This document shows positions 7,839 to 33,705 of a DNA stretch of 35,909 bases, piece by piece. The stretch lies in the IMG/VR virus record IMGVR_UViG_3300032893_000186, positions 1 to 35,909 of that record; one strand, given 5' to 3'. The first letter of the stretch is position 1. Each line of letters begins with the position of its first letter. The position numbers and the translations under genes are program-made. The DNA is from a virus. Under the pieces are notes generated by a model, which was not told the origin of the DNA, did no database searches, and saw only the letters and a list, made by a program, of their open reading frames with translations.

Positions 7839-7889
7839 GCTATTATTCTATCCAATTCAAGTAAATCAATACATCTAAAACAATACAAA

Positions 7890-9012: not shown

Positions 9013-9013
9013 C

Positions 9014-9038: not shown

Positions 9039-9049
9039 CAATAGAAAGA

Positions 9050-9059
9050 TATATAAATA
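9050..9059 (+). promoter_or_regulatory. TATA box TATATAAATA
   Basis: Ends 26 nt before ATG 9085, directly after the terminator. Predicts a nearly leaderless transcript starting within a few bases of the ATG of the repeat protein. Confidence 0.55.
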
Positions 9060-9084
9060 CTAATATATGTAAAATAATATAAAA

Positions 9085-10437: not shown

Positions 10438-10438
10438 A

Positions 10439-11973: not shown

Positions 11974-11976
11974 AAA

Positions 11977-12207: not shown

Positions 12208-12218
12208 CACATTCCACA

Positions 12219-12230
12219 ACCCTAAAGGGT
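12219..12230 (+). repeat. Short inverted repeat ACCCTAAAGGGT
   Basis: A near-perfect 12-bp palindrome between two gene clusters, followed by a further AGGGTA. It could be an operator or a small hairpin. No clear TATA box is seen before the next gene. Confidence 0.35.
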
Positions 12231-12245
12231 AGGGTATCTTAAAAC

Positions 12246-12392
12246 ATGGAAAAACAAAAACTAATTTGTGCTGAATGCGGAAAAGAAATAGAATACGGAG
12301 AAGAAGTTGGACTTGGAGATGATACTGACGATGTTGTATGTAGTGATGAATGCTTGAATGATTATTTTAGTCACGATAATAGAGGAGAATAA
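12246..12392 (+). CDS. Small zinc-finger protein (48 aa)
   Basis: A 48-residue acidic protein: CAEC near residue 8 and CSDEC near residue 32, a C-x2-C-x(n)-C-x3-C finger similar to the TRASH/MYM style (ending CSDECL). The stop is 2 nt from the next ATG. Function unknown. Confidence 0.55.
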   Translation: MEKQKLICAECGKEIEYGEEVGLGDDTDDVVCSDECLNDYFSHDNRGE

Positions 12393-12394
12393 AA

Positions 12395-12673
12395 ATGGCA
12401 CACAAAATAGTAAAATTATTATCAGATGATGATGGAGTTGAATATTCAAAAGACGAACAAGTCTGGCATTTATCCATAGTTGTTACTGGAGACCCTTGCA
12501 CTCTTTGTTCTGGAGAATTTTATGGAGATGGAGAAAGTGCTTGTAAGTTCAAAGAGAAAATTGTAGAATATGGTGGAATAACTTGTAAAAAGTGTCTCAG
12601 AGAAATAGAAGAAATTAAGTCTATAAAATTATCACAAACTAAACTCGGAGGACGCAATTCCTCTCAAGCCTAA
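12395..12673 (+). CDS. Cys-rich zinc-binding protein
   Basis: A 92-residue protein with CTLCSGEF-Y-GDGESACKF and CKKC near residues 47 and 71. The CxLCxGE-(x)n-GGITCxKC arrangement suggests one four-Cys zinc site joined by a helix. GAGGAG lies 7 nt before the ATG. The neighbours on both sides are also zinc-finger genes. Function unknown. Confidence 0.55.
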   Translation: MAHKIVKLLSDDDGVEYSKDEQVWHLSIVVTGDPCTLCSGEFYGDGESACKFKEKIVEYGGITCKKCLREIEEIKSIKLSQTKLGGRNSSQA

Positions 12674-12701
12674 AGGCATTGAGTATCCTTGCGGTATTTA
12701 T

Positions 12702-12866
12702 ATGAAAGTAACTTGTCCTTACTGCGGTCACAATCAGATGTATGAATGTCGAAGTGATACTATCGCTCAAAAAAGGAAAAAATGCGTCTACTGCGGAAAA
12801 GACTTCACAGTCTATAAAAACATCAATGAAAACAATCTAACTTTACAAAAGGGAAAATGGCAATGA
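12702..12866 (+). CDS. Zinc-ribbon microprotein (54 aa)
   Basis: A 54-residue basic protein: CPYC at 5-8 and CVYC at about 30-33, each followed by Gly (CPYCGH, CVYCGKDF), a classic zinc ribbon. Its end overlaps the nuclease start (12857), so it is likely co-translated with, and may assist, the nuclease. Confidence 0.6.
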   Translation: MKVTCPYCGHNQMYECRSDTIAQKRKKCVYCGKDFTVYKNINENNLTLQKGKWQ

Positions 12867-13543
12867 AACATGAGATAACTTGTAAAGTTTGTGGCAAAAA
12901 GAAAATAATTTATCATAATGGGCTTTATTGTTCAAGAGAATGTTATAATTATGTTCATAAATTAAAAAGAAAGATTTGTCCTGTTTGTCAAAAAGAATTT
13001 CAACCAATTAACTATAAACAAATTCATTGTAATATTGAATGTTATTCAAAATCTGAAAAATTGAAAGATTTATCTTCAAAATCAAAAATGATACTTGATT
13101 GTTCAAAAAGAAAATACCATAAAGGATATAAAATGTCAGAAAGCACAAAAAAACATCTCGGAGAAATAGCTCAAAGTTCTATGCGTAAAGGAATAAATTT
13201 TGAATACAATGCTAAAAAATTCATTGAAAGACAACCAAACGTCATAGAAGTCATTAGAGCTGGTGCGAGTAAAGGAATAGATTTAACAGTTATATGGAAA
13301 GAAAACGATATGTTCCATATTACTAAAGAAGAGGTGAAATCAAGTTTGAGATGGATAAAAAGAAGAGATAAAAACCCGATATCTCTTTTAGAAAAAGATG
13401 ATAAAGAAAAACTTTTGATTGAATTAGAAAAGGGATTTGATATTTATTTGATTTATCGAGAATTAATTGGAAAAGTAACAAGAATTAAGAGAATAAAATT
13501 AGAAAGAGAAAATCTGCAACAAATAAACGCAGGAGTAGCTTAA
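12857..13543 (+). CDS. PD-(D/E)XK nuclease with zinc fingers and NUMOD3-like motif (Hjc-like)
   Basis: A 228-residue protein. Residues 9-70 carry two zinc-finger units (CKVC, YCSREC; CPVC, HCNIEC). Residues ~88-112 (HKGYKMSESTKKHLGEIA...) resemble the NUMOD3 DNA-binding module of homing endonucleases. Residues ~112-165 fit a PD-(D/E)XK core as in archaeal Holliday-junction resolvases: E116, I-R-A-G-A-S-K-G-I-D142-L, then E159-V-K161. It may cut branched or specific DNA. The coding end overlaps the tRNA-like gene by 15 nt, unusual and suggestive of a tRNA-associated mobile nuclease. The nuclease class is fairly clear; resolvase versus homing role is not. Confidence 0.65.
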   Translation: MAMKHEITCKVCGKKKIIYHNGLYCSRECYNYVHKLKRKICPVCQKEFQPINYKQIHCNIECYSKSEKLKDLSSKSKMILDCSKRKYHKGYKMSESTKKHLGEIAQSSMRKGINFEYNAKKFIERQPNVIEVIRAGASKGIDLTVIWKENDMFHITKEEVKSSLRWIKRRDKNPISLLEKDDKEKLLIELEKGFDIYLIYRELIGKVTRIKRIKLERENLQQINAGVA

Positions 13544-13616
13544 CGGTCAGAGCAATCAGAGATAGTCCGGATATAACGTCTCTGAGAGTATAGAGGTTCA
13601 ATTCCTCTCTCTTGCA
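13529..13616 (+). tRNA. tRNA or tRNA-like gene with insertion in the anticodon arm
   Basis: The acceptor stem GCAGGAG pairs with CTCTTGC (one G-U), a D-arm GCT...AGC encloses a loop with GG, and the T-arm is AGAGG-TTCAATT-CCTCT. The discriminator is A616 and no CCA is encoded. The anticodon region has 15 nt more than a normal tRNA. An extended TCAGAGA/TCTCTGA helix closes a 16-nt loop, so either an intron is present or this is not a decoding tRNA. No reading of the loop gives U33 and I cannot assign an anticodon. The first 15 nt overlap the nuclease coding end. Confidence 0.6.
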
Positions 13617-13752
13617 CTCATAGTCATACGGGAAAGCCATTAAACTTGCCTTACTCACTTACCGTTGGATAGGTTTGTTTATCGAACCCAAGTATAGCGA
13701 GCTCTGATGTGGGTGTGCTTGACAGTTCCGAAGAGACGGAAACATAATCAAA
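13617..13752 (+). ncRNA. Structured non-coding stretch after the tRNA
   Basis: A 136-nt gap without an ORF but with several hairpins: GGTTTG/CGAACC (13671-13687 region) and TTCCG/CGGAA just before the next gene. It is less AT-rich than its surroundings. This could be a processed leader, an unknown small RNA, or a remnant of a mobile element. No family recognised. Confidence 0.3.
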
Positions 13753-13887
13753 ATGGAAACAATAGAGGAAATCAGTAAAAAACTTTCAAAACAAAATGAA
13801 ATTTTAGCATGGAAACTCAAAAATCAATTAGACAAAGCAGACAAGATAAAAAAATTAATAAAAGAACTATATCAGCTTACACAATGA
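13753..13887 (+). CDS. Small coiled-coil protein (44 aa)
   Basis: A 44-residue, Lys-rich, fully helical sequence (IEEISKKLSKQNEILAWKLKNQLDKADKIKKLIKEL) with a heptad-like pattern. It shares ATGA with the YkgJ-type gene that follows. Not recognised. Confidence 0.5.
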   Translation: METIEEISKKLSKQNEILAWKLKNQLDKADKIKKLIKELYQLTQ

Positions 13888-14336
13888 AGGAAAAAAATAG
13901 AATACTTGATGCAGAATTTTTAAGAAAAAATAATCTTCATATCTTAGGGATGAATGTTAATCTTTATGGATTGGATTACAAAGGTAAAAAGTATCTTGTT
14001 GTCAGAGAAGGATTTTGTGACCCTAAGAAATGCAATTCTGCATGCTGCAAGTTAGTCTGTTTTAATGACAATGAAAAAAAGAAATCTTACTGGAAAAACT
14101 TCTTTGATGAAGGGAAGTTTGCTTTTATCTTAAAAAGAAAATGCAAAATGTTAAAAAGAAATGGGCTTTGCAAACTATGGGGAAAAAATCTCCCTGGAGC
14201 TTGTCAGCAGTTTCCTCATCCTGAAGATGCAGTTTATTTAGAAAATTCAGACAAATGCTCTTTTCAATTCAGGCTCATCGGAGAATGGTTCGAAACTAAA
14301 AAAACTTTAAAAAATGTCAGAAGAAAAAAAAGATGA
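13884..14336 (+). CDS. YkgJ-type Cys-cluster protein
   Basis: A 150-residue protein from ATG 13884, which overlaps the previous stop by ATGA. The upstream ATG 13809 is in frame but would overlap by 79 nt. Cysteines are arranged as C-x4-C-x3-CC-x3-C (FCDPKKCNSACCKLVC), then C-x(n)-L-K-R-N-G-L-C-K-L-W-x(n)-PGACQQFP, which fits the YkgJ/CxxCxxCC family that ends in RPxxCRxFP. Such proteins are thought to bind zinc or iron-sulphur; their role is not established. A second member lies at 18714. Confidence 0.6.
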   Translation: MKEKNRILDAEFLRKNNLHILGMNVNLYGLDYKGKKYLVVREGFCDPKKCNSACCKLVCFNDNEKKKSYWKNFFDEGKFAFILKRKCKMLKRNGLCKLWGKNLPGACQQFPHPEDAVYLENSDKCSFQFRLIGEWFETKKTLKNVRRKKR

Positions 14337-14616
14337 AGTAGTTAACCTTTTAAGAAAGCTCTCAACTCAAGACGAAAGATTTGAGGTCACAATGAGCATG
14401 CTCAATGACTTAATCTTAGCTATGCAAACGGTTCTGAATGTTTTAATCAAGAAAAAGGTTTTTACAGAAAAAGAATTTATAGCAGAAAAAAACAAAGTCT
14501 ACAAAGATGCATGTGAAAATCTAAAGAAAAACAGAAAAGAAATAATCAATGCAGCAGAAAAATTAACTAAAGAAAGACTTGAAGAAAATAAGAAAAATAC
14601 AAACTATGCGGGATGA
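14314..14616 (+). CDS. Helical hypothetical protein
   Basis: A 100-residue protein with probable coiled coil throughout (NLLRKLSTQDERFEVTMSMLNDLILAMQTVLNVL..., then a Lys/Glu-rich helix). It overlaps the YkgJ-type gene by 23 nt and the HNH gene by a few codons. Not recognised. Confidence 0.45.
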   Translation: MSEEKKDEVVNLLRKLSTQDERFEVTMSMLNDLILAMQTVLNVLIKKKVFTEKEFIAEKNKVYKDACENLKKNRKEIINAAEKLTKERLEENKKNTNYAG

Positions 14617-14845
14617 AAGACTTAAACTCTGGAGACAAGCTGTTTTAATAAGAGATAACTTTACTTGTCAAAAATGCAAAAAGAGGAATACTCCTTTCAT
14701 GTTAGAAGCTCATCACAAGATAAGCCCTAATCAGAGACCAGATTTGAAGTATGACATAAAAAATGGAGAAACCAGATGCAAGAATTGCCACAGAAAAGAA
14801 AAATCCTCTAAAGTCTGGTTCATACTTAACAAAAGACGGCTATAG
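14606..14845 (+). CDS. HNH endonuclease
   Basis: A 79-residue protein from ATG 14606 (ATG 14579 is also in frame). The order W-R-x-A-V-L-I-R-D-N-F-T-C-Q-K-C, L-E-A-H-H-K-I-S-P, N-G-E-T-R-C-K-N-C-H is a complete HNH with two CxxC zinc knuckles (QKC and KNC) and the catalytic HH. Small phage HNH enzymes near terminase genes help DNA packaging or act as homing nucleases. It precedes and overlaps a second, different HNH gene in another frame. Confidence 0.75.
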   Translation: MRDERLKLWRQAVLIRDNFTCQKCKKRNTPFMLEAHHKISPNQRPDLKYDIKNGETRCKNCHRKEKSSKVWFILNKRRL

Positions 14846-15131
14846 AATGATTTACAAGCCCGGATATCGTTCTTCTAATCAGAATAATTATTGCCTTGAA
14901 CATCGCTACGTTGTCGAGCTCTACATCGGGAGATTTCTCAAGAAAAAAGAAGCGGTTCATCATTTAAATTCAAAAAGAACAGACAATAGAATTTCTAATT
15001 TAATGTTATTCAGTTCACAAAAAGCTCACAAAACTTTTGAAAATAGATTAAGACGAGAAGGATGGACGCATTATCTAAGACTTCAAGTCCGGGACAGATG
15101 GGTTCCTTATAAGCGAAAAGTATTTAAATAA
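14763..15131 (+). CDS. HNH homing-endonuclease-like protein
   Basis: A 122-residue protein. DGYRMIYKPGYRSS-(x)n-LEHRYVVELYIGRFLKKKEAVHHLNSKRTDNRISNLMLF matches the HNH_3/homing pattern (GY...P, EHR-x-V-x-E-x-x-L-G-R, VHH-(x)n-DNRxxNL). A start at 14847 would lose DGYR, which is part of the conserved block. The start at 14763 keeps it but overlaps the previous gene by 83 nt. The two HNH frames may instead be one gene split by a frameshift. Confidence 0.65.
   Translation: MEKPDARIATEKKNPLKSGSYLTKDGYRMIYKPGYRSSNQNNYCLEHRYVVELYIGRFLKKKEAVHHLNSKRTDNRISNLMLFSSQKAHKTFENRLRREGWTHYLRLQVRDRWVPYKRKVFK
15121..15130 (+). promoter_or_regulatory. TATA box TATTTAAATA
   Basis: Ends 20 nt before ATG 15150 and overlaps the end of the HNH-like gene. 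Predicts a leaderless transcript for the small membrane protein and the ParB-Mom-terminase block behind it. Confidence 0.6.
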
Positions 15132-15149
15132 AGCAATAGATAAATTACT

Positions 15150-15269
15150 ATGGTAAAACAAAACATCTTAGAAAAGATTTTATTGTTCTTTTTATCAGTC
15201 TTAGGGACTGCAGCGTTTGTTTCATTCTTAATCTGGCTCTTGGTTATCATGTGGAGAGCTATTTTATAA
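15150..15269 (+). CDS. Single-span membrane microprotein (39 aa)
   Basis: A 39-residue protein: short basic N-terminus (MVKQNILEK) followed by a near-continuous hydrophobic stretch (ILLFFLSVLGTAAFVSFLIW...). It has a well-placed TATA box and ends one base before the ParB-like ATG. Function unknown; a small holin, or an anchor protein, is possible. Confidence 0.5.
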   Translation: MVKQNILEKILLFFLSVLGTAAFVSFLIWLLVIMWRAIL

Positions 15270-15270
15270 A

Positions 15271-15825
15271 ATGGAAATAGAAACAATAAAGAATACAGAA
15301 TTAAAGCACTTTGAAGGAAACCCGAGAAAAATCTCTGATGAAGAATTAGAAAAACTCAAAAGAAGTTTAATTCAATTTTCTTTTGTCGAGCCTTTAGTGA
15401 TTGATGAAAATAACGTAGTAATCGGCGGAAATCAAAGACTTTTAGCTTCTACTAAATTATCAGAAGAGGGAAAACAATTCACTACAATAGAAGATGAAAA
15501 AGGAAATCCTGTTTCTATTGATTTAAGCTTAATTCCTTGCTACAGAGCAAAAGGATTAACTGAAGCAAGAAAGAAAGCCCTGAATGTTGCTCTCAATAAA
15601 ATAAGCGGGGAATTTGACTTAGAGAAACTTCCTGAGTTTATCAAGTCTATAGAGGATGAAGACAAAGACGCTGTAGTTCTAACCGGTTTTGATGAAGACG
15701 AAATTACAGCAATGTTTGAAGAACCAGAGTTAGCTACAGAACCAGTGAGCGAAGACGAACAAGGTGACTTAGACAGCAACTTAATCAAGTGCCCCAAATG
15801 CGGACATGAGTTCAGTAAATATTAA
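15271..15825 (+). CDS. ParB/sulfiredoxin-domain protein with C-terminal zinc knuckle
   Basis: A 184-residue protein. Residues ~17-60 (NPRKISDEELEKLKRSL...EPLVIDENNVVIGGNQRLLA) match the ParB/Srx nucleotide-binding core including the GGxxR box (GGNQR, 52-56). A helical region (KALNVALNKISGEFDLEKLPEFI) follows, and the C-terminus has CPKCGHEF, suggesting a half zinc ribbon. Phage ParB-like proteins of this type frequently neighbour DNA-modification and packaging genes. Here it overlaps the Mom-like gene by 20 nt, arguing for a joint role in DNA modification or packaging. Confidence 0.75.
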   Translation: MEIETIKNTELKHFEGNPRKISDEELEKLKRSLIQFSFVEPLVIDENNVVIGGNQRLLASTKLSEEGKQFTTIEDEKGNPVSIDLSLIPCYRAKGLTEARKKALNVALNKISGEFDLEKLPEFIKSIEDEDKDAVVLTGFDEDEITAMFEEPELATEPVSEDEQGDLDSNLIKCPKCGHEFSKY

Positions 15826-16507
15826 ACTAAACTGGTGCAGTCATCAAGCTGCAGAATTTGCATGCAAGTTTTATCATTATTCTAAATGCATGCCTTCTCC
15901 GCCAACTGTTCGCATAGGCGTCTGGGAAAATAATAAATTCATAGGAGTTATAATTTTCTCAAGAGGAGCAAGTTCAAACATCGGAAAACCTTTTAAGTTA
16001 AATCAAAACGAAATAGTTGAACTGACAAGAATAGCTTTAAAGTCTCATCAAACACCGGTTACAAAGTTTCTATCTATTGCAATAAAAATGCTAAAAAAAC
16101 ACTCACCGGGAATAAAATTGATTGTTTCTTACGCGGACCCTAATCAAGGTCACTTAGGTAAAATCTATCAAGCATCAAACTGGATTTACACTGGACAAAC
16201 AGTAAAAACTACATTATATTTTGACAAAACCGGAAAAAAATTTCATTCAAGACAAGTCTCAGAAAAAGGATTTAACAAACAATACGGAGAAAGAAGAACT
16301 TGTCCTAAGCCTTCTCAGTTAAGACACGTAAGACAATTAGGAAAGCATAAATATTTATACCCTTTAGACAACTTAGTTAAATCATCAATACTTAAATATA
16401 AAAAAGAGTATCCTAAATGCGAGCTTAGTTTAACAGCAGAACAGTCTTCTCTCCAGAAGAAAAGCGAAGGTTCAACTCCTATCAGCTCGCACCAAATTAT
16501 TCAATAA
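15806..16507 (+). CDS. Mom-like DNA-modification GNAT protein
   Basis: A 233-residue protein. The pattern HYSKCMPSPPTVRIGVWENNKFIGVIIFSRGAS, ELTRIALKS, LKLIVSYADPNQGHLGKIYQASNWIYTG (Tyr-Ala-Asp-Pro at ~109-112) is that of the Mom family, whose Mu member converts adenine to N6-carbamoylmethyladenine to block restriction. The GNAT-type core occupies residues ~1-150. The last ~45 residues are low in conservation signals; about 25 of them are encoded by the tRNA-like element at 16419. Overlap with the ParB-like gene suggests one operon. Chemistry in this virus is inferred from family only. Confidence 0.75.
   Translation: MSSVNIKLNWCSHQAAEFACKFYHYSKCMPSPPTVRIGVWENNKFIGVIIFSRGASSNIGKPFKLNQNEIVELTRIALKSHQTPVTKFLSIAIKMLKKHSPGIKLIVSYADPNQGHLGKIYQASNWIYTGQTVKTTLYFDKTGKKFHSRQVSEKGFNKQYGERRTCPKPSQLRHVRQLGKHKYLYPLDNLVKSSILKYKKEYPKCELSLTAEQSSLQKKSEGSTPISSHQIIQ
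16419..16494 (+). tRNA. tRNA-like element embedded in the Mom-like coding sequence
   Basis: Perfect 7-bp acceptor GCGAGCT/AGCTCGC, TA at 8-9, D-arm GTT...AAC, T-loop TTCAACT, discriminator A and encoded CCA. Between D-arm and T-arm the length is that of an intron-less tRNA, giving T33 and CTC (Glu) at 34-36. However the anticodon arm pairs well only in a shifted register (TCTTC/GAAGA, 6-nt loop), and the T-stem has a bulged A. The whole element is in frame inside the Mom-like gene. It may be a tRNA mimic or decayed tRNA rather than a decoding tRNA. Confidence 0.55.
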
Positions 16508-16519
16508 CAGACCATCAAA

Positions 16520-17017
16520 ATGCCATCAAAAATAGAGGTTCAGTTGATAGAGGATTTAAGTGATTTCCCTAAGAAGCTTAGAAGAAAGAGAATACTTAAT
16601 TTTTTCAAGTCTCAGGGCTCAACAGACTTCTCTCAAAGATTTTTAGCTAAGTCTTTTAATTTAGACCAAGAAACAATTGCAAGAGATTTGAAAGCAATGC
16701 CTAATGAAATTCACAAAATAGATGCAAGAAAAATAATGTTTGAGTTCACTGTATTGAAAAGCAAATGCTCAAAAGAACTTTTAAGGATTATAAACAGCAA
16801 AGAAGCGAAGCCTTTCGAGAAGGTCGCTGCAATGAAAGAAGCACTTACAATAGCAGACAAAGAAATAAATAATGCAGCAAAGTTAGGATTTATTGAACTT
16901 CCTTCACAGCAGATAGAGATAACTGAAAACAAAAAAGTTTTATTCTTTTCAATAATTAAACAAGCCAGTGAACAAAATGATGAACGTAGAAGAATATGCC
17001 TTGAGGAAAGTCAGTAA
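16520..17017 (+). CDS. Putative small terminase / HTH protein
   Basis: A 165-residue basic protein. Residues ~20-60 (RRKRILNFFKSQGSTDFSQRFLAKSFNLDQETIARDLKAM) read as a helix-turn-helix, followed by a long helical region (CSKELLRIINSKEAKPFEKVAAMKEALTIADKEIN) suited to ring assembly. It precedes and overlaps the large terminase by 41 nt, which is the usual position of the small subunit that recognises packaging sites. Sequence alone does not prove TerS. Confidence 0.6.
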   Translation: MPSKIEVQLIEDLSDFPKKLRRKRILNFFKSQGSTDFSQRFLAKSFNLDQETIARDLKAMPNEIHKIDARKIMFEFTVLKSKCSKELLRIINSKEAKPFEKVAAMKEALTIADKEINNAAKLGFIELPSQQIEITENKKVLFFSIIKQASEQNDERRRICLEESQ

Positions 17018-21532: not shown

Positions 21533-22822
21533 ATGAAAATCCTTGTTGTTTCACATGACGGGCTCGCAAGTGACTTAGTCAAGATACTTCAAGAAGAAGG
21601 TCATGAAGTTTTGTTCAATATTTCAACTTTTACATGCTTAGACATCATGGATGGATTAGTTGAGAAAGTTCATTACTTCGCTGATTACATTAATTCTGTT
21701 GATTTGATTATTTTTGATGATGTAGGCTTCGGAAAGTTTCAAACAACTCTTAGAAAGAACAATTACAATGTTGTCGGCAGTTCTGAATGGGGAGACAAGA
21801 TTGAAGAGGATAGAGACTTCGGCGAAGAAATTGCTAATAAGATAGGGATGAAAACTCCGGAGACTTTTGAGTTCGATGACTTTGATGAAGCAATTAATCA
21901 CATAAAAGAAAACAAAGGTCAATGGATTGTCAAGTTCAACGGAAAAGTTGCAAACAATAAAGAATTACTATACCTATCTGAGAAAGATGACAGCTCTGAT
22001 TTGATTTCAATTTTAACTCATTACAAAAACACATGGAACAAAAACTGGAATGTTGATTTTATTTTATCAAGAAAGGTTGAAGGAATAGAGATGGCAGTCG
22101 GAGCTTACTTCGATGGAGAGAAATTTGTCGAGAATACAATCAACATAAACTTCGAGCATAAAAGATTATGCAATTCTGACTTAGGCTGCATGACTGGCGA
22201 GATGGGGACTGTTATAAAATTCTGTGAGAAATCTGAAATGAAATTATTTAATGAAACATTAAAGAAATTAGAGAATGACTTGAAAGAAAGCGATTATCAA
22301 GGATGCATTGACATTAACTGTATTATAGACAAAGAAGGAACTCCGTGGTTTGTAGAGTTTACATCACGCTTCGGCTATCCTGCTTTGAACATCGAAGCAG
22401 AAGGTCTGAAGGGATGGGGCGACTTCTTGTATTCCCTGTCAAATGGGGAAGGAACAGCGGAAACCGATAAAAGCTGGTTAATCGGAGTTGTTCTTGCTGT
22501 GCCGCCCTTCCCCTACAATGCAAGAGTTCAGTTCGACAGATTAAGCAAAGAAAGCCCGATTATTCTTGATGATTTAAATGAAGAGGAAAAAACTCATGTT
22601 CACTACGGAGATGTCAAATCAAAAGATGGTTCACTCTGCATCGGCGGAGACTTCGGTTATGCTCTGATTGTCACAAACAAAGGAAAAACAATAAAAGAAG
22701 CTCAAGAGAAAGCTTATGAAATTTGCAAGAAAATTGTAATTCCTAACAAGTTCTATAGAACTGATATCGGAGACAGAGTTATAAAAGATTTAGAAGAATT
22801 AAAAAAATTAGGATATTTATAA
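21533..22822 (+). CDS. PurD-like ATP-grasp ligase
   Basis: A 429-residue protein with the domain order of phosphoribosylamine-glycine ligase: an N-terminal pre-ATP-grasp domain (MKILVVSHDGLASDLVKILQEEGHEV), the ATP-grasp core with WIVKFNG (ATP-binding Lys), FILSRKVEGIEMAVGAYF and DINCIIDKEGTPWFVEFTSRFGYPA (metal-binding acidics with an FTxRFG-type motif), and a C-terminal PurD-like domain (IGVVLAVPPFPYN...GDFGYALIVTNKGKTIKEAQEKAYEICK). Typical PurD has the same length. The location inside the head operon argues against simple purine synthesis. It may ligate an amino acid to a viral macromolecule or act with the Mom-like modification, but that is inference. Confidence 0.75.
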   Translation: MKILVVSHDGLASDLVKILQEEGHEVLFNISTFTCLDIMDGLVEKVHYFADYINSVDLIIFDDVGFGKFQTTLRKNNYNVVGSSEWGDKIEEDRDFGEEIANKIGMKTPETFEFDDFDEAINHIKENKGQWIVKFNGKVANNKELLYLSEKDDSSDLISILTHYKNTWNKNWNVDFILSRKVEGIEMAVGAYFDGEKFVENTININFEHKRLCNSDLGCMTGEMGTVIKFCEKSEMKLFNETLKKLENDLKESDYQGCIDINCIIDKEGTPWFVEFTSRFGYPALNIEAEGLKGWGDFLYSLSNGEGTAETDKSWLIGVVLAVPPFPYNARVQFDRLSKESPIILDDLNEEEKTHVHYGDVKSKDGSLCIGGDFGYALIVTNKGKTIKEAQEKAYEICKKIVIPNKFYRTDIGDRVIKDLEELKKLGYL

Positions 22823-24343: not shown

Positions 24344-24787
24344 ATGGAAAACGAAAACACCAAGAAAGAAGGAAACGAAGTCTTGATGGCTTTAAGCGAA
24401 ATAAAGCAATTACTACAAAGCTTGCTTGAAAAGATGAGTGAGACCCCAGCCGAAGCTGCAAGTCCTGAAGAGCCTAAAAACCCTGAAGAGACAAAAGCTG
24501 ACACCAGTAAAATCGGTGCTCAAGGCGAAAAGGTTGTCTTGCCTAAAGACGTATCTGAAGATGTTCATTCAAACCCTCAGGGTTCGGATAACGACAAAGT
24601 GCACGTTGCACAGAAATCAGATGAAGTCTTAAAAGCAGGAAAAGTCTCTCCAAGACCAGCAGTGGTAAACGATGTTTCTCCAGAAGCTGAAAACGAAAGT
24701 CCGGCTATGAAAGTTGCACACAGCAAGATGAATTTTGCTGATGTTCACAAGATGGCTCGAAAATTCGCTCCAGCAAGGAGGTTTTGA
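24344..24787 (+). CDS. Scaffold-like protein upstream of capsid
   Basis: A 147-residue protein: an N-terminal amphipathic coiled coil (ALSEIKQLLQSLLEKM), a long Glu/Pro/Ser-rich disordered middle, and a basic C-terminal helix (DVHKMARKFAPARRF). This is the usual composition of a capsid scaffold or delta domain, and it lies between protease and capsid. Its end contains the capsid Shine-Dalgarno. Function is inferred from composition and position. Confidence 0.55.
   Translation: MENENTKKEGNEVLMALSEIKQLLQSLLEKMSETPAEAASPEEPKNPEETKADTSKIGAQGEKVVLPKDVSEDVHSNPQGSDNDKVHVAQKSDEVLKAGKVSPRPAVVNDVSPEAENESPAMKVAHSKMNFADVHKMARKFAPARRF
24775..24781 (+). promoter_or_regulatory. Strong Shine-Dalgarno AAGGAGG for the capsid gene
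   Basis: Lies 8 nt before ATG 24790 and fixes that start over the in-frame TTG at 24784. The strength fits the high demand for capsid protein. Confidence 0.75.
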
Positions 24788-24789
24788 AA

Positions 24790-25923
24790 ATGGTCACACA
24801 ACCATACATCAGAACAATAGAAGACATGGAAAAGCTTTATTACTACGGTGAAGGAACTCAATCTGTAGAAAAGATTGATGCACCCGTTTTGTCAACGACT
24901 ACAGGTGTCTACAATGCTATATACGGTGCTCAGGTTTGGTCTTTGTTGAACCAAGAAGCTAATGCATTCGGGGTATTGCCAAAATTCCCATGGAGCAGAA
25001 GCGGTTGGAGAAACATGTCTGCAAGAGCAGGTTCGACAGCTGATGGTGGAGTAGCCGAGGGCGGAGCTTTACCTGACAGTATTAAACCTACATTTGAAGA
25101 AGTCAGCACTAAGCCTAAGACTGTAGCTCACGTGTTTGAAGTTTCTGAAGTGCAGCAATTCTTAACCGAGACAGATGATGCCATCGGTGACCTTGAAATG
25201 ATGCGAGGTATGATGGGAGTTAAGCACAAAGAAGCTATCAACCAACAGCTATTAGCAGCAGTAGAAGCTGGATTAGCCGGAAACAACTTCGAAAGTATTG
25301 ACAGAGTTTGTTGTTCTAAAGCTGAAGTCACAGATTGTAGCATAACATCGAATTACGGTGATATCTACGGCTGGGACAGAGACAGTGCAACAACTCACGA
25401 TGCTTATGTCGACGAGAACAGCAATACTGACAGATATCTTACAGATGACATGCTTAGAGGAATGTTAACAACCTTGCAACAGAACGGAGCAAATCCGACA
25501 ATCTGGTTGACAGGCTGGGACACTTTCTCAAGAATAGTCAGCTTGTATGACCCTCAGGTCAGATACAATGTTGTCGGAGAGACAATGGCAAGCGTGGGCG
25601 TTAATGGAATTAACACTCAAGCTGGTTTTGGTTTCGGTGTAAAGGTTTCAACCCTTTACAATATCCCTTTAATCATTAGCAAGGATGTCTACAAGGACAC
25701 TATATCAAGAATTTATCTTCTTGATACAAGCGACCCTGAAGGATATGGAGTGCCAAGGATGGGGATAGCGATTGCAAGACCAACACAATATTTCGAAGCT
25801 GGTATCGACAAGGGCGACCCATTCCCAGTTGCGAAGTTCACAACTAAAGGAATGTATCGAACAATGGGCGAGCTGATTTGCAGAGTTCCTCAATACCAAG
25901 GTAAGATACGAGACTTGAAATAA
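24790..25923 (+). CDS. Major capsid protein, HK97 fold
   Basis: A 377-residue protein. A P-domain/spine-like segment (HVFEVSEVQQFLTETDDAIGDLEMMRGMMGVKHKEAINQQLLAA) and a C-terminal A-domain with WLTGWDTFSRIVSLYDPQVRYN and LYNIPLIISKDV fit the HK97 capsid pattern, as does the size. It follows protease and scaffold-like genes and is followed by a T-rich terminator. It has three Cys close together (RVCCSKAEVTDC) that could stabilise the shell. Confidence 0.85.
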   Translation: MVTQPYIRTIEDMEKLYYYGEGTQSVEKIDAPVLSTTTGVYNAIYGAQVWSLLNQEANAFGVLPKFPWSRSGWRNMSARAGSTADGGVAEGGALPDSIKPTFEEVSTKPKTVAHVFEVSEVQQFLTETDDAIGDLEMMRGMMGVKHKEAINQQLLAAVEAGLAGNNFESIDRVCCSKAEVTDCSITSNYGDIYGWDRDSATTHDAYVDENSNTDRYLTDDMLRGMLTTLQQNGANPTIWLTGWDTFSRIVSLYDPQVRYNVVGETMASVGVNGINTQAGFGFGVKVSTLYNIPLIISKDVYKDTISRIYLLDTSDPEGYGVPRMGIAIARPTQYFEAGIDKGDPFPVAKFTTKGMYRTMGELICRVPQYQGKIRDLK

Positions 25924-26631: not shown

Positions 26632-26982
26632 ATGACAAACGTTTATAAAAACGTCTTGCTCATAGGGAATAGAGATACCGTCGAGACAGATGTTGCAAAT
26701 TATTTAAATGGAGAACTTGCAGAAAGTGATACTTTCATAGATGCAAGTATAGCAAAGGCATCAGCAGATAGAATATGGATTAACATTACAACATACGGTT
26801 CTTTGGCTGAAACTAAGACTTATACAAATACATTATTACTCAAGAAAAGAGGATTAACCAGCACGTATACAAATACAGTTCTGTTGAAGAAAAAAATTAC
26901 AAAAACTTATTCAAATACTCTTTTAATCAAAAAGGAAATAACAAAAACTCATACGATGGACGTGATTTTGTATCATGCGTAA
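26632..26982 (+). CDS. Small structural protein ending in four 14-residue repeats
   Basis: A 116-residue protein from ATG 26632, two bases after the previous stop (ATG 26605 would overlap it). N-terminal ~58 residues are the paralogue of the preceding gene. From about residue 61, four units follow: KTYTNTLLLKK, STYTNTVLLKK, KTYSNTLLIKK and KTHTMDVILYH. These match the repeats of the proteins at 29330 and 31056. Its stop is inside the next promoter. Probably part of a repeat-based virion structure. Confidence 0.6.
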   Translation: MTNVYKNVLLIGNRDTVETDVANYLNGELAESDTFIDASIAKASADRIWINITTYGSLAETKTYTNTLLLKKRGLTSTYTNTVLLKKKITKTYSNTLLIKKEITKTHTMDVILYHA

Positions 26983-27036: not shown

Positions 27037-27612
27037 ATGGGAGCTACTGTAAACATTCAGGAAGGAAACGGAGCCAGTGTCACATGGACAACCATAACAG
27101 CTGGCAGATACTGCACTGAAGATGCATACAATCCCGGAACAACTGACCCTTGTGTTGTTCCTGACAGCGGTCTAAATTACAGCTTCTGGAAACACCATTC
27201 TTTGAGCATCGGCGGTTCATACACGCAGATTACAAACATAAGATGGTATACCGACGGAGCTATAGGCTGGACTTTAGGAACAAACGGACTTCTCGGAGTT
27301 GGTTTAAGAGATAGTGGAGACAACGGATGCCCTGCTGCGAACTATCAGCAAGCATTAGGAACAGTCGGAACAACAGGATATTATCTCAAAGACAACACGA
27401 ACGGACATGCGTATTATAAGGGACAGACCGCGGGACCCGGCAATGCACAAAACTACACTGCTGGAAGTCCATTGACTATTGATAACACCACAACCTACAC
27501 AGGAACTGTGACAGCCACAAAATCATGTGTAAGTCAGGTTATTATCGATACAGATGCAACTCAGGGAACTCAAGCAGCCGAGACGTTTACTTTCAAATGG
27601 GATGAGATATAA
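27037..27612 (+). CDS. Virion structural protein
   Basis: A 191-residue beta-rich protein, Gly/Thr/Asn-rich with many aromatics (SFWKHHSLSIGGSYTQITNIRWYTDGAIGW...). The ending SQVIIDTDATQGTQAAETFTFKWDEI is similar to small structural proteins of environmental phages. Strong promoter and leader suggest abundance. Possible head-decoration or fibre component. Confidence 0.5.
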   Translation: MGATVNIQEGNGASVTWTTITAGRYCTEDAYNPGTTDPCVVPDSGLNYSFWKHHSLSIGGSYTQITNIRWYTDGAIGWTLGTNGLLGVGLRDSGDNGCPAANYQQALGTVGTTGYYLKDNTNGHAYYKGQTAGPGNAQNYTAGSPLTIDNTTTYTGTVTATKSCVSQVIIDTDATQGTQAAETFTFKWDEI

Positions 27613-27664: not shown

Positions 27665-28087
27665 ATGATAGACTTAGCTAATACAATAGTTGAAATAGCA
27701 AAGAAGCATCCTGAAGAAAGGTTCTTCTGGATAGCCTACTATAGCGACGGCTCTATTTTTCCGCAGTTCGATTTTGATACTTATAGCGAAAACTTGTTCA
27801 AGGACATTGACTTGAACAAGCTTCGTGCTTTTTCTTGGTTTCCTTTATTTCCTGATTTAGACAGTGAATTTAAAATTCTATTAGACAGCAATAAGAAGCT
27901 TATAGCGTTCAAAACTTGTTCTAAGACGTATTCTGCTAACTCTGACATGAAAATCATCCAGCAAGGCGATAAGAAGGTTATAGCCTATGTTTTGGGCTGG
28001 CAAGAGATAGGAAACAATGAAAATAAGGTTTTGACTTACATTACAGAAAAACAAGTGATTATTTCGAGCAAAACTCTTGAGGTGTAG
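27665..28087 (+). CDS. Hypothetical protein in fibre region
   Basis: A 140-residue protein with an aromatic N-terminal half (PEERFFWIAYYSDGSIFPQFDFDTYSENLF) and a beta-rich C-terminal half. The W-x-x-x-Y-x-D-G-S pattern is seen in some phage proteins of unknown function. Its end contains the GAGGTG that serves the next gene. Not recognised. Confidence 0.5.
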   Translation: MIDLANTIVEIAKKHPEERFFWIAYYSDGSIFPQFDFDTYSENLFKDIDLNKLRAFSWFPLFPDLDSEFKILLDSNKKLIAFKTCSKTYSANSDMKIIQQGDKKVIAYVLGWQEIGNNENKVLTYITEKQVIISSKTLEV

Positions 28088-28088
28088 A

Positions 28089-29321
28089 ATGGTCAGAAAA
28101 TGGTATGTTAATGACCCTAAGATAACAGACACTGACTGGAACCCGATGGTTGATGAGCTTGACAAAACTCTTGTAGATAGCTCTGATACGACTTCTGCTT
28201 TTTTATGGAATAAATTATCAGCTGGCACAGGGATTAGTCTGAGTGTTGTTAATCCTTCAGGAAATGAAAAAATTCTGATAACAAATACAAGCTCAGGCGG
28301 AACTCCGAGCGGAAACTCAGGGGATGTTCAATTCAATAATTCTGGGAATTTTGGAGGAGATGATGACTTTTACTGGGATAATATAAAAAAGAATTTAGGA
28401 ATTGGGACAACTTCGCCTACTGCAAGATTGCATTTGCCAGGAGGAGCAGAGGCAACTGGAAAGGCTCCATTAAAATTCACAACAACTGGTGCATTATTAG
28501 ATAATCTTGAAGCGGGAGCATTTGAAAGCTTGAATGATGATTTATATTACACCATACCTACTGGACCTCAAAGAACAGGGGTTGTATTAAGCGAGGAACC
28601 ATTAAGTGAGAATTGCATAACTTTCGCTTCAGTAAACGGCAGACTAAATTTCGACGGAAATTTAACCTTTATAACTGATACTCTATCAACTCCGAAAATA
28701 TCCACATCAGAGGTTATACTCAATTCTGCTGCAGCATATACAACCGACGGAGCAATCTGGAATGACAGCACTTATAATTGTCACAGTTCTTTTATCAACG
28801 GAGTAAGGCAGAAAATCAATACTGTTTTATTTGTTCAATCTTCGCCTCAGACTGTAGTGAATACTGGAAGTGAGACCACGCTAATAGGTTCAGGAGACAA
28901 CACCCTCACAATTCCAGCTTTTTTCTTTACGCCCGGAAAAACAATCAGAATAAGAGGTTGGGGTTATTATTCAACAGCGTCAATATCTCAAGGGACATTA
29001 ACAATTAAAGTAAAAATAGGTTCAACAGTGGTTAGTTACGCTTTGATTTCTCAAACTCAAGGAATAACAAACAAAGGATGGAGAATTGATGATGAATTTA
29101 CTTGCACAGGAGCAGGAACATCAGGAAGTCTTTGGGCTCAGGGAAGAGTAGACATGGACATTGTGTCTTTCACAACTGCTGCATACTGGATGACAAACAC
29201 AACCCCTGTGGCAATAAACACTACAAATTCTTACAATTTAGACGTAACAGCAACTTATTCTAATCCTTCGCTTTCAAATAGCATAACCTCAACTAATTTC
29301 GTGTTTGAGGTTTTGGATTGA
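28089..29321 (+). CDS. Tail/head fibre protein
   Basis: A 410-residue protein from ATG 28089, which has GAGGTG 4 nt upstream; the TTG at 28077 is rejected. SGDVQFNNSGNFGGDDDFYWDNIKKNLGIGTTSPTARLHLPG is a hallmark of phage fibre and bacteroid-type surface proteins (LGIGTTSPxARLH). The ~170-residue C-terminal part ending TNFVFEVLD resembles a fibre-tip beta-sandwich. It probably forms trimers and contacts the host. The next gene uses an identical GAGGTG arrangement. Confidence 0.65.
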   Translation: MVRKWYVNDPKITDTDWNPMVDELDKTLVDSSDTTSAFLWNKLSAGTGISLSVVNPSGNEKILITNTSSGGTPSGNSGDVQFNNSGNFGGDDDFYWDNIKKNLGIGTTSPTARLHLPGGAEATGKAPLKFTTTGALLDNLEAGAFESLNDDLYYTIPTGPQRTGVVLSEEPLSENCITFASVNGRLNFDGNLTFITDTLSTPKISTSEVILNSAAAYTTDGAIWNDSTYNCHSSFINGVRQKINTVLFVQSSPQTVVNTGSETTLIGSGDNTLTIPAFFFTPGKTIRIRGWGYYSTASISQGTLTIKVKIGSTVVSYALISQTQGITNKGWRIDDEFTCTGAGTSGSLWAQGRVDMDIVSFTTAAYWMTNTTPVAINTTNSYNLDVTATYSNPSLSNSITSTNFVFEVLD

Positions 29322-29329
29322 GGTGTATC

Positions 29330-30772
29330 ATGGCTGTTGGCTGCTTTGACGGGAATGTTTTTGACGGGAATGTTTTTGATGTTACTTCTGTAGTGATTAC
29401 GACTTATCTTATGGATGTCAGGCTCGAGCACGGAAAATTTAAAGATTATTCTATGGACTTGATTGTAAAAAAGCCTAAGACAAGTTCTTATTTCATGGAT
29501 ATTATGATTAGGGGAAAAATATCAGAGACGTATACAATGGACACACTTCTCGCAGTTGAAAAAATCAAAACGTATCTAATGGACGTTATGCTCAAAGGAA
29601 AAGTTTCAAAAACTTATACTATGGATATTAGATTAGAACATCCGTGGTGGATGGATTATTATTTTGATGTCATTCTGAAAAAAAGTCTTTCAGATGTTTA
29701 CTACATGGATTTAATTCTCGAGAAGATAGGAAATAAAACATATTCTATGGACACATGGATAAAAAAGAAAGAGATTATTTCATACTTAAATGACTTGATT
29801 ATAGAGAACAGAAATGTAAAGAAAAACTATACAATGGATTTGATTATAAGAACAACTAAAAACTATTTCATGGACGTAAGGCTTGCTAAAAAGCCTTTTG
29901 AAGATTATTACATGGATGTTTTAATTCAAAGCCCTAAAAACTACTGGGCTCTTTTTGATGTCTGCTTGCAGAAATGGTTTACAAAGTCTGCTGATTTTGA
30001 CTTAATCCTCGAGAAAAAAGGAGAACTTACTTACTCTATGGACTTGATAATTTCTAAAATAAACTCAAGTGATTACACAATGGACTTGATTTTGCAGAAA
30101 GCTTTGATTAAAACAGCTGATTTTGATGTCTTGCTTCAGAAGGCAATAGATAAAACCTATGACATGGATGTTTTGTTAAGCCTTGAGAATAGTAAAAATT
30201 ATTCAATGGATGTTCTCTTGAAAAATAAAATACTTGAGAATTACAATTTAGATTTATTGCTTCAAAAAGCCATGAAAGAATTGTATACTCTCGACTTAAT
30301 TCTGAAAAAAGGATTTTCTAAAGATTATACATTTGATGTTATTCTAAAAAAGAAAATTCTGTCTAACTATCTTCTTGATTTGATACTTCAGAAAAAGATG
30401 ATTATTCAAGAGACTATGGACTTAATCTTAATGAAAAGAAAAAATAAAACATATTCAATGGATGCTCTGTTGAAGAAAATAAAAACAGAGGCTTATCTCA
30501 TGGATGCTCTGTTAGTTCTTGCAAGAAGATTGAATTACACTATGAGTTTGATTTTGGTCAAGGCGAAGAATAAAGTTTACACAATGGATTTGATTATTCT
30601 AAGATATCCTCATAAATCATACACAATGGACTTGATTATAGCACCGAAGGCAGAGGAAATATTTGTAAGGTCAACTCAGGGAAATCCTGTTTATACTAAA
30701 TCAATTCAAGCTGAGAATGTATACATGAAGGCAAAGCAATGCTCAAATGTCTATCTTAAGGCTAATCAGTAA
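29330..30772 (+). CDS. Giant 14-residue-repeat protein (about 30 repeats)
   Basis: A 480-residue protein from ATG 29330 (GAGGTG upstream at 29320-29325; TTG 29318 rejected). After ~23 residues containing a duplicated DGNVF, it is almost wholly 30 units of 14 residues with consensus K-x-Y-x-M-D-[LV]-[LI]-[LI]-x-K-x-x-x. The tail has four ~10-residue units V-Y-x-K-x-x-Q-x-x-N. Alternating small and hydrophobic residues suggest one or two short beta-strands per unit, as in a beta-solenoid rod. Neighbours are fibre genes; two other proteins share the unit. No catalytic motif or membrane segment. Function unknown; a long fibre shaft or whisker is a fair inference. Confidence 0.7.
   Translation: MAVGCFDGNVFDGNVFDVTSVVITTYLMDVRLEHGKFKDYSMDLIVKKPKTSSYFMDIMIRGKISETYTMDTLLAVEKIKTYLMDVMLKGKVSKTYTMDIRLEHPWWMDYYFDVILKKSLSDVYYMDLILEKIGNKTYSMDTWIKKKEIISYLNDLIIENRNVKKNYTMDLIIRTTKNYFMDVRLAKKPFEDYYMDVLIQSPKNYWALFDVCLQKWFTKSADFDLILEKKGELTYSMDLIISKINSSDYTMDLILQKALIKTADFDVLLQKAIDKTYDMDVLLSLENSKNYSMDVLLKNKILENYNLDLLLQKAMKELYTLDLILKKGFSKDYTFDVILKKKILSNYLLDLILQKKMIIQETMDLILMKRKNKTYSMDALLKKIKTEAYLMDALLVLARRLNYTMSLILVKAKNKVYTMDLIILRYPHKSYTMDLIIAPKAEEIFVRSTQGNPVYTKSIQAENVYMKAKQCSNVYLKANQ
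29399..30658 (+). repeat. About 30 tandem 42-bp repeats coding 14-residue units
   Basis: Units remain in strict 14-residue register apart from a few indels of one or two residues. The invariant core is the Asp at position 6 (nearly all units) with Tyr at position 3. DNA identity between units is low, so the array is old, not a recent expansion. Confidence 0.85.
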
Positions 30773-30782
30773 ATTATTTTAA
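30769..30782 (+). promoter_or_regulatory. BRE+TATA promoter variant GTAAATTATTTTAA
   Basis: One extra T shifts the TATA part. It contains the stop codon of the repeat protein. The start codon is 47 nt away, so a leader of about 25 nt carrying a Shine-Dalgarno is expected. Confidence 0.55.
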
Positions 30783-30816
30783 CTAAAAACAATTCAAAAT
30801 ACAGAAATAAACTGAC

Positions 30817-30822
30817 AGGAGG
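30817..30822 (+). promoter_or_regulatory. Consensus Shine-Dalgarno AGGAGG
   Basis: Lies 6 nt before ATG 30829, in the leader predicted from the promoter at 30769. Shows that leadered, SD-driven translation coexists with leaderless starts in this genome. Confidence 0.7.
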
Positions 30823-30828
30823 CTAAAA

Positions 30829-31059
30829 ATGGAATTTATGATACAAAAAGTCGGAAAGGATACCATTGATGGAGTAGAGTGTGATGTCTATATGAAGTAT
30901 ACATTTGACGGAGAGATACTGAAGCCAGTAAACAGGTTTTCTGTCCCTTTGAACAATAGGCATATTGCTTCTTTTCAAAAGATGATAGCAGACTTGCAGG
31001 AAGAAAATTCTTTAGTAGATAATCCTAAATTATTGCTTCCAGATAAAGAGGACTTATGA
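30829..31059 (+). CDS. Small hypothetical protein between repeat proteins
   Basis: A 76-residue protein: a beta-rich start (FMIQKVGKDTIDGVECDVYMKYTFDGEIL), then a helix (RHIASFQKMIADLQEEN). It has a consensus Shine-Dalgarno and overlaps the next gene by 4 nt (ATGA). Not recognised; possibly a chaperone for the large repeat or spike proteins. Confidence 0.5.
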   Translation: MEFMIQKVGKDTIDGVECDVYMKYTFDGEILKPVNRFSVPLNNRHIASFQKMIADLQEENSLVDNPKLLLPDKEDL

Positions 31060-32747
31060 CAACATATACTGCAGTTAGTGGGGGCGGAAACTGGTCATCT
31101 AATTCAACATGGAGCCCTTCAGGACATCCAGTTCAAGGAGATACGGCTATTCTTAATTCCAGTTCAGGAAATGTCACAGTTGATGTAGCATCTGCTTGTG
31201 ATGATTTAGATTGCACAGGATATACTAACACATTGACTTTATCTGCTGGATTGACTTGTTATGGAAATTGGGTTTCAACTAACGGTTTTTCTCCTAATGG
31301 AAATACAGTAACTTTCGCAGCAACTTCATCTAAAAATCTTACTTGCACTTGGGCTACTTTTGCTGGTGTAATTTTCAATGGAGCAGGCGGAGAATGGACT
31401 TTACAGCATGGATTTGAAGCGACTGGAACGGTAACTTATACGGCAGGGACTTTACATCTTAACGGAAAAGACTTTTATCAGGATACAGGAAACGCAACAA
31501 TAGGCAATGGATTTACTTTAGACATAGGCAGTGGTTCTTTTAATCTGCAATCTAACGGAGATTTTACAGTAGGAAATGGAGCTACTGTAACAATAGCTGC
31601 AGGAAGTGTAAATAATACTATGGGTATTTATGTAACTGGAACAGGTGTTTTTACTTGTTCAGGTTCGGCATATATCGCACCTTTTGGTTCAATTTCTTTA
31701 AACGGAAATTTCACGCCTTCAACGTCTACGGTTAGAATGAGGTCAAACTATACTACAAATATAACTTCAGCAAGTCTTTTTTATAATTTAATTGTTGGGC
31801 AATATGGCTCAGGAAGTCCTACTTTGCTTAGCAGTATTGTTGTTCAGAATGACTTTACTATCTACACAGGAGACAGTTTGAATGCTAATGGATACAACAT
31901 AACAGTTGGAGAGAATTGGACTAACAATGGTTCATTTACTGCTGGTTCAGGTTCAGTTATATTTAATGATGCAACTAAAACTTCTGTTATAACTGGAGCA
32001 ACTACATTTAACACGATTTATTGTCACACTCAAGACAAAACAATTAACTTTACTTCAGGTCAAACATTCACTTGCTCTGCTTTTGATTTTGTTGGAGCAT
32101 CCAGTCATTTGATTACAATAGGCTCAACTTCAACATCACAGCATACTCTATCAAAGTCATCAGGAACTGTATCAGTTAGTTATTGCTCTATTTCATACTC
32201 AAATGCAACAGGCGGAGCAACATGGGACGCTTTTTTAAGCAACGGTTGTGTCGACGGCGGAAACAATTCAGGCTGGATTTTCTCGAGCTTCACAACAAAA
32301 ACAAAGACATACACTATGGACGGACTTTTGTTGAAGCACATTACAAAGACTTATTCAAACACAGTTTTAATCAAGAAAGGAATAACTAAGACCTTTTCAA
32401 ATTCTCTATTGTTGAGAAAAAGCCTGACAGATAATTACTCAAATACTCTTTTACTGAAAAAGTTAGGATTGACTAAAAGTTATACAAACACTTTATTGAT
32501 AGGAAAAAACATAACAAAAACATACTCAAACTCAGCTATCCTAAAAAAAGGATTGATTGAGACTTATACAAACACTTTGATTATCAGAAAATACGGAGTT
32601 ACTAAAACATATACGATGGATTTGATACTTTACACTTCTCATGTCACATTCAAAAACTATTCAATGGATTTAAAATTACTCCCTGTTGCAAGGAAAATCT
32701 ATCTGCAATCAGAGCAAAGCAATCCATTTTATGTGAAATCCAGTTAG
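31056..32747 (+). CDS. Beta-helix spike protein with nine C-terminal 14-residue repeats
   Basis: A 563-residue protein. The N-terminus (SGGGNWSSNSTWSPSGHPVQGDTAIL...VTVDVASACDDLDC) resembles the opening of G8/pectate-lyase-like beta-helix proteins (GGGxWSxxxTWxxGxxPxxGDT). The long Thr/Ser/Asn/Gly-rich middle (to ~410) suits a right-handed beta-helix. Residues ~417-540 are nine 14-residue repeats (KTYTMDGLLLK, KTYSNTVLIKK...). The C-terminal SEQSNPFYVKSS resembles the end of the 29330 protein. Probably a surface spike anchored or extended by the repeat domain. No catalytic residues identified. Confidence 0.65.
   Translation: MTTYTAVSGGGNWSSNSTWSPSGHPVQGDTAILNSSSGNVTVDVASACDDLDCTGYTNTLTLSAGLTCYGNWVSTNGFSPNGNTVTFAATSSKNLTCTWATFAGVIFNGAGGEWTLQHGFEATGTVTYTAGTLHLNGKDFYQDTGNATIGNGFTLDIGSGSFNLQSNGDFTVGNGATVTIAAGSVNNTMGIYVTGTGVFTCSGSAYIAPFGSISLNGNFTPSTSTVRMRSNYTTNITSASLFYNLIVGQYGSGSPTLLSSIVVQNDFTIYTGDSLNANGYNITVGENWTNNGSFTAGSGSVIFNDATKTSVITGATTFNTIYCHTQDKTINFTSGQTFTCSAFDFVGASSHLITIGSTSTSQHTLSKSSGTVSVSYCSISYSNATGGATWDAFLSNGCVDGGNNSGWIFSSFTTKTKTYTMDGLLLKHITKTYSNTVLIKKGITKTFSNSLLLRKSLTDNYSNTLLLKKLGLTKSYTNTLLIGKNITKTYSNSAILKKGLIETYTNTLIIRKYGVTKTYTMDLILYTSHVTFKNYSMDLKLLPVARKIYLQSEQSNPFYVKSS
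32301..32670 (+). repeat. Nine 42-bp repeats coding 14-residue units
   Basis: Units of [KT]-x-Y-[ST]-[NM]-[TD]-x-[LI]-[LI]-x-K-x-[GIL]. Inner units use S/T-N-T, outer units use T-M-D, the form found throughout the 29330 protein. Confidence 0.8.
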
Positions 32748-32782: not shown

Positions 32783-33064
32783 ATGGCGAATGAATACCAA
32801 AAGGGTGAGGATGCAATTTTGACACTGAATACATACAGTGATGCAAGTAGAACTGCTTTGATTGATGTTGATACAGTCAAGTTGACTGTCAAAAAGAACG
32901 ACGGGACTATAGTCGTGAACAATCAAGATGCAGTTCATTCATCAACTGGAACGTATACATACATCTATCGAACAACAGACGACGGAATTTACAGCATCTT
33001 TTGGACCGCAACACTCGCTTCACTTGTAACTAAAACGGAGGACTTTTTGAAAGTTCAGAACTAA
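32783..33064 (+). CDS. Small Ig-like virion protein
   Basis: A 93-residue beta-sandwich-like protein: KGEDAILTLNTYSDASRTALIDVDTVKLTVKKNDGTIVV, SSTGTYTYIYRTTDDGIYSIFWTATL, following the pattern V-x-L-x-I-x-x-x-D-G-x-x-V...SxGTYxYxY...GxYxxxW of Ig-like or BppU-N-like phage domains. First gene of the connector-tail block behind a leaderless promoter; overlaps the next ATG by one base. Confidence 0.55.
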   Translation: MANEYQKGEDAILTLNTYSDASRTALIDVDTVKLTVKKNDGTIVVNNQDAVHSSTGTYTYIYRTTDDGIYSIFWTATLASLVTKTEDFLKVQN

Positions 33065-33705
33065 TGGGCGTCACATGGTATACAACAACTGAGAGAGTAG
33101 CTGGATTATTGCAAGTTCCAGTGTTCAATGAAACTACAAGCCCTGCAAGAGAAGCAGTCGAAGACAGCATAAATGAAGCAGAGGATGAAATCGACAGGGT
33201 TACAAATCATGCATGGAGAGAAAAAACAATCACTCAAGAGATGCATAATCTCGAAGATAGCGGATACAGAGCATATACTGGTGTTCCTCTTTTCCTGCAT
33301 CACAGAAAAATCAAGACATTAGACAATCAAAAAGGCGATTTAATCGAAATCTGGGACGGAAGTTCATGGGTTGATTATATCACAACCTATCAAGAAGGTC
33401 GAGACAAAGATTTCTGGTTAGACTACGAGCAAGGAGTTATTTTCATAAGAACAAGACCGCCTTTCTTGCCTAAGGTTTTTATTGCAAGAATTACATACCG
33501 CTACGGTGAAAGTTCAGTTCCGAAAGATATTGAAAAAGCTGCAACAATCATGGCTGCACAGGATTTGCTCATGTCAGATGACAGAAGTGTTTTGCTCCCT
33601 GAAGGGACAAGCAATATAACTTTATCTGAGAAAAGGCATCTCTGGGATGAAGAAATTGAAAAGATTTTAAACAGATACAAAGAAACTGTTGTTGCAATCT
33701 TGTAG
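33064..33705 (+). CDS. Head-tail connector / adaptor protein
   Basis: A 213-residue protein. An N-terminal helical part (TTERVAGLLQVP...AREAVEDSINEAEDEIDRVTNHAW) and a C-terminal helix pair (IEKAATIMAAQDLLMSD) flank beta sequence with GVPLFLHHRKIKTL and ITYRYGESSVP. This matches head-completion adaptors of the HK97 gp6/SPP1 gp15 type (TYRYG-x-x-x-VPxDI-x-x-A). It joins portal and tail. Position before tail terminator and tube genes agrees. Confidence 0.75.
   Translation: MGVTWYTTTERVAGLLQVPVFNETTSPAREAVEDSINEAEDEIDRVTNHAWREKTITQEMHNLEDSGYRAYTGVPLFLHHRKIKTLDNQKGDLIEIWDGSSWVDYITTYQEGRDKDFWLDYEQGVIFIRTRPPFLPKVFIARITYRYGESSVPKDIEKAATIMAAQDLLMSDDRSVLLPEGTSNITLSEKRHLWDEEIEKILNRYKETVVAIL

Follow-up and report, generated by a model that had tools for sequence, protein, structure and literature searches.

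The 14-residue units found in three genes of the virus record IMGVR_UViG_3300032893_000186 (35.9 kb; the window analysed here is the whole record, 35,909 nt) are not unique to this virus, and matches in other genomes indicate that they belong to a repeat family that is widespread across many tailed viruses. It is reasonably likely, in our view, that the unit serves as a shaft module in the host-recognition fibres of a tailed-virus group that is probably mostly archaeal. Each unit would consist of one beta-strand core of 8–9 residues and a loop of about five residues, and the arrays would form beta-rods that keep receptor-binding heads off the virion surface. A cassette between the capsid and head-tail adaptor genes (Table 1) encodes at least two array proteins together with a companion and a phrog_11178 protein. 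Some array proteins bear an adhesin-like head (lectin-like, propeller or probable beta-helix), and protein A is almost wholly repeat. In contractile relatives, one array protein carries the baseplate domain phrog_1160.

TerL, portal, tail tube and tape measure genes are present in the record. The MCP is 36% identical to that of HVTV-1 and 26% identical to that of Methanofastidiosa virus vir519, and this likeness makes an archaeal host likely. The record is probably circularly permuted, since its tape-measure gene runs open at base 2 and the genes for the tail chaperones are located at the opposite end. Elsewhere, 9085–9573 encodes a Cys-rich protein with about 10 hexapeptide repeats ([GW]C[ND]NST) and many N-x-S/T sequons. 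The protein encoded at 21533–22822, between the portal and capsid genes, resembles a PurD-like ATP-grasp enzyme (phosphoribosylamine-glycine ligase) on a reading of its sequence alone, and a similar ORF is present in a Portnoybacteria contig (L085, 1890–3176).

Table 1. Array genes and cassette members in the window
Feature	Position	Strand	Length	Remarks
MCP	24784..25923	+		phrog_24667; upstream cassette edge
Protein C	26632..26982	+	116 aa	small N-terminal domain and four units (NT, NT, NT, MD)
Companion protein	27037..27612	+	191 aa	no family assignment; in many viruses a homologue lies ahead of the array genes
Second companion	27665..28087	+	140 aa	phrog_11178; usually just 3' of the 27037 homologue
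Fibre-like protein	28077..29321	+	414 aa	NLGIGTTSPTARLHL motif and beta-rich C-terminus, by sequence reading; directly 5' of protein A
Protein A	29330..30772	+	480 aa	ATG 29330, stop 30772; 30 units at aa 22-440
Protein B	31056..32747	+	563 aa	N-terminal Ser/Thr/Gly-rich domain, then array, then tail
Protein B C-terminal array	32298..32690	+		nine units: MD, NT, NS, NT, NT, NS, NT, MD, MD
Head-tail adaptor	33064..33705	+		phrog_17057 strongly, phrog_442 weakly; downstream cassette edge

The repeat unit and its predicted structure

The array of protein A is highly regular. An earlier sequence-only reading had put it at about 30 units of 14 residues; 30 were counted, and 27 of the 29 spacings are exactly 14, with one of 15 and one of 12. 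Tyr, Met and Asp are conserved in 26, 21 and 29 of the 30 units, respectively, and the last core position is Leu, Ile or Val in every unit. Identity at lag 14 was 0.343, compared with 0.080 ± 0.013 in shuffled sequences (z ~20), and the observed maximum was reached by none of 2000 shuffles. The protein has a short N-terminus (CFDGNVFDGNVFDV), with GAGGTG five bases 5' of the ATG. Its tail (30650–30769) consists of about four 10-residue motifs of the form [VI][FY]x[KR][SA]xQxxN.

Counting likewise confirmed the nine C-terminal units claimed for protein B, which begin at aa 415 (spacings 14–16; lag-14 z 7.5), and the four claimed for protein C (spacings 15, 14 and 14; z 4.4), whose start is most likely the ATG at 26632 rather than the mechanical TTG at 26605. 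The proposed M-D and N-T sub-types are both real and can be read off the unit order of proteins B and C. The same reading had called Asp almost invariant, which holds for M-D units but not for N-T units, where Thr or Ser takes its place. The N-terminal domain of protein B gave a weak, sub-threshold match to DUF7305 (E 3e-4) and is probably beta-helical. The tail of protein B (32690–32744) begins with the same 10-residue motif that opens the tail of protein A; a C-terminal module common to both proteins is possible.

The age of the array was evaluated at the codon level. Identity at lag 14 for the three codon positions was 0.48/0.57/0.36 against a background of ~0.3, with third positions near background, and synonymous codon agreement between units was at chance (59 vs. 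58 expected). The units are strongly divergent from one another and their synonymous sites are saturated. These results argue for an old 14-residue period that selection on the protein has maintained. Tandem repeats are often born by slippage, and the array could in principle be a neutral or selfish expansion with no virion role; we regard this as very improbable, given that the period has stayed exact in the protein while synonymous sites are saturated and that linkage to the cassette is conserved.

AF2 prediction of ten protein A units, using an 11-row gap-free in-register alignment, yielded one strand of 7–10 residues per unit (pLDDT 46, pTM 0.39). A more regular dialect, from L071, gave pLDDT 54 and pTM 0.48, with the other four models at 30–41, and in both runs strands were predicted and helix was absent. 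Foldseek matched these low-confidence models mostly to beta-solenoids, among them ice-binding proteins, FapC and autotransporter passengers, but with probability ≤0.09 and TM-scores mostly of 0.1–0.3, and the matches are not meaningful; the arrays also differ from those solenoids in having no sequence relation to them and an Asp rather than an Asn or Thr ladder. Of the beta-solenoid rod originally proposed, a regular beta-rich unit is supported, and the solenoid itself is neither proved nor excluded by these models. Monomer prediction would fail for an obligate oligomer too.

Three known architectures were rejected. A coiled coil is contradicted by the hydrophobicity correlation at lag 7 (−0.14) as well as by the helix-free AF2 models. 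An RTX beta-roll, built on the nonapeptide GGxGxDxUx, is contradicted by the absence of any lag-9 or lag-18 signal and by the Gly content of protein A (1.4%). Triple beta-spiral shafts, such as those of the adenovirus fibre and reovirus sigma1, have a 15-residue repeat; they resemble the arrays in that a short hydrophobic beta repeat forms a shaft under a receptor-binding head. However, the best lag here is 14, not 15, Pro is as scarce as Gly in protein A (1.4%), Asp is near-invariant, and the arrays are common to several genes per virus.

The repeat family and its conserved cassette

Protein searches with protein A in viral_contigs and phages returned no matches. Because the low-complexity filter of tblastn may hide repeats, DNA-pattern scans replaced direct protein searches. 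In viral_contigs a three-unit pattern gave 14 matching stretches, of which several proved to be genuine relatives; a two-unit pattern added others. In total, 498 units (about 500) were collected from 28 ORFs in 17 records, a count that takes in 11 protein B units, two of them outside the B array. The family consensus is T-K-T-[YF]-T-[IVML]-D-x-[LI]-[LIV]-x(5). With records weighted equally it becomes T-K-T-[YF]-T-[IVL]-D-[AGVIL]-[LI]-[LIV]-[KQ], with Asp at ≥81% and Asn at ≥8%, both lower bounds since a few spurious ORFs are included. Length changes are confined to the loop, and insertions occur only before T-K-T. A pattern for the N-T dialect matched no virus besides this one.

The earlier statement that no characterised domain has this period and core was upheld: the repeat of this virus matched no family in Pfam, PHROGs, NCBIfam or PDB, and the arrays of its relatives matched no named family. 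On L012, Polo_box_4 scored above cut-off with no single stretch passing alone, which we attribute to a chance resemblance of the repeat. Among the matches listed by literature searches on 14-residue repeats, none was relevant. The pattern matches inspected in the genome collection, L020 excepted, were chance low-complexity or antisense frames; a G016 match with 6 stops and a Portnoybacteria ORF lying antisense to a coiled-coil gene were rejected. No arrays were found in 152 Methanobacteriota genomes, one spurious match aside. L113 encodes an all-repeat protein (5170–6468) of period 14 with a Glu-Ala core, in a divergent dialect (RxTKxVEALTxIFE; lag-14 identity 0.344); its N-terminus, LYPSNTLYPSNTLYPG, recalls FDGNVFDGNVFDV of protein A. 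L081, from a Victivallales MAG, holds a 3368-aa ORF (6481–16584) that lies in a provirus-like region and combines beta-propeller-like repeats with degenerate 14-residue arrays.

The gene neighbourhood was then assessed through the companion gene. Two scans gave 35 companion loci, which are not independent events, some coming from near-identical or previously found contigs; profile-detected arrays were present in 20 of the 35, always on the same strand. Where at least 5 kb of downstream sequence was available, an array was found at 17 of 17 loci (16 canonical and the divergent L113), compared with 0 of 16 control terminase loci. The order MCP, companion, phrog_11178 gene, fibre/array genes, adaptor is complete in this virus. 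It recurs with a PHROG-named MCP and adaptor in L094 and L108, with an upstream MCP in L091, L111, L113, L119 and L122, and from companion through tape measure in L107. The MCP families differ among the carriers, suggesting that the cassette is transferred from one capsid lineage to another or persists longer than they do. In L005 and L020, the gene directly 5' of the array gene encodes a product that the 27665 protein weakly resembles. The 414-aa fibre-like protein had no database match, and a scan with the head-tail adaptor found no relatives. Companion proviruses were not found in 398 Thermoproteota and 152 Methanobacteriota genomes, in a scan that had no positive control. The original reading of these as virion genes is supported by their context, yet it had missed the widespread family, the conserved cassette, and the joining of arrays to adhesin-like heads and, in relatives, to a baseplate domain.

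Virion location and function

The arrays are associated with baseplate, adhesin and head-tail genes, as for phage adsorption apparatus. They follow LamG/DUF2341 lectin-like domains in L005, L066, L072 and L119, a weak DUF4082 match in L076, and Asp-box propellers in L092. In addition, arrays flank the baseplate domain phrog_1160 in L092, L101, L093, L112 and the Methanosarcinales virus vir525 (BK063673). The last resembles the present virus in having 14-residue array-like units and a companion homologue, the latter 2 kb upstream of the phrog_1160 protein; unlike this virus, it is contractile and its arrays are degenerate, whereas proteins A, B and C carry no phrog_1160 domain and no phrog_1160 gene is fused to an array here.

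Proteins A, B and C are putative virion components, placed there by gene order and domain content. Gene position suggests genes of the head-tail junction, and the domain fusions suggest the tail or baseplate. The fibres might instead be attached to the head, as turret-like decorations. The haloarchaeal virus HFTV1 is described as having trimeric turrets on the MCP hexamers of its head and as often binding cells head first (PMC12494034, PMC9973310); its turrets (gp30/gp31), as reported there, likewise belong to an archaeal tailed virus and share with the proposed fibres a host-binding structure that is stalked, trimeric and topped by a carbohydrate-binding head (PMC12494034). They differ in that the turrets as described in that source have no 14-residue array, and proteins A and B have no sequence match among PDB chains. 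This alternative is consistent with the cassette lying between MCP and adaptor and with an MCP related to those of haloarchaeal viruses. However, arrays are fused to the baseplate domain in the five viruses above, and some G002/G018 arrays lie within the tail module. We therefore consider head fibres unlikely.

The array could also act as an adhesive surface, a ladder binding glycans or the S-layer, rather than as a mechanical shaft. Its recurrent Lys/Asp pattern, the nearly all-repeat protein A and the frequently lectin-like fused domains fit this idea. Conservation, however, is focused on the hydrophobic core and Asp, as expected for structure, and the loop varies, making an adhesive role quite improbable. 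The shaft remains the reading we prefer.

Array sharing within genomes

Among the 12 array-positive records searched whole, eight carry at least two array ORFs. For G003, G006, G014 and the B–C pair of this virus, within-genome similarity was reached by no between-record pair involving those ORFs. The B–C similarity was reached by 0 of 50 between-genome pairs; A–B similarity is weaker and was reached by 12 of 50. Synonymous codon agreement was at chance for B–C, L071 and L004, indicating no recent DNA exchange. Such dialect sharing is what docking would predict, and common descent under common constraint would predict it as well.

One explanation is that each array protein forms its own homo-oligomeric fibre and the arrays of different genes never meet, dialects being shared through common descent and shared conditions. 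Arrays confined to one gene in G004, G007, G008 and G009, the differing dialects of A and B, and dialect sharing with recent DNA exchange in one pair (L067/L075; 113 vs. 81.5) argue for it. Against it stand the multiple array genes of most whole-searched records and the N-T dialect common to B and C with no synonymous-codon excess. We place such independent stalks not far short of an even chance. As for the co-assembly proposed earlier, dialects shared within a genome with no recent DNA exchange make it plausible, and A and B share less. We put forward only tentatively that, within one virus, different subunits dock together through their arrays, with dialect as the matching code; protein A would then form the shaft, to which B and C would add the tip and base. 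Rather unlikely, in our judgement, is the broader proposal that docking is the general role of the 14-residue strand, through which the baseplate, shaft and receptor-binding subunits of one virus, all in the same dialect, co-fold into a composite beta-fibre.

An uncatalogued repeat family and its carrier cassette in tailed viruses are now defined, and the combination of the 27037 companion, phrog_11178 and an array provides a sequence handle by which genes for adsorption may be sought among viral dark matter. If the strand is a docking unit, heads could be swapped by recombination and the interface would need no redesign. If arrays dock across subunits, they would offer an unusual modular route to composite fibres with exchangeable receptor-binding heads.
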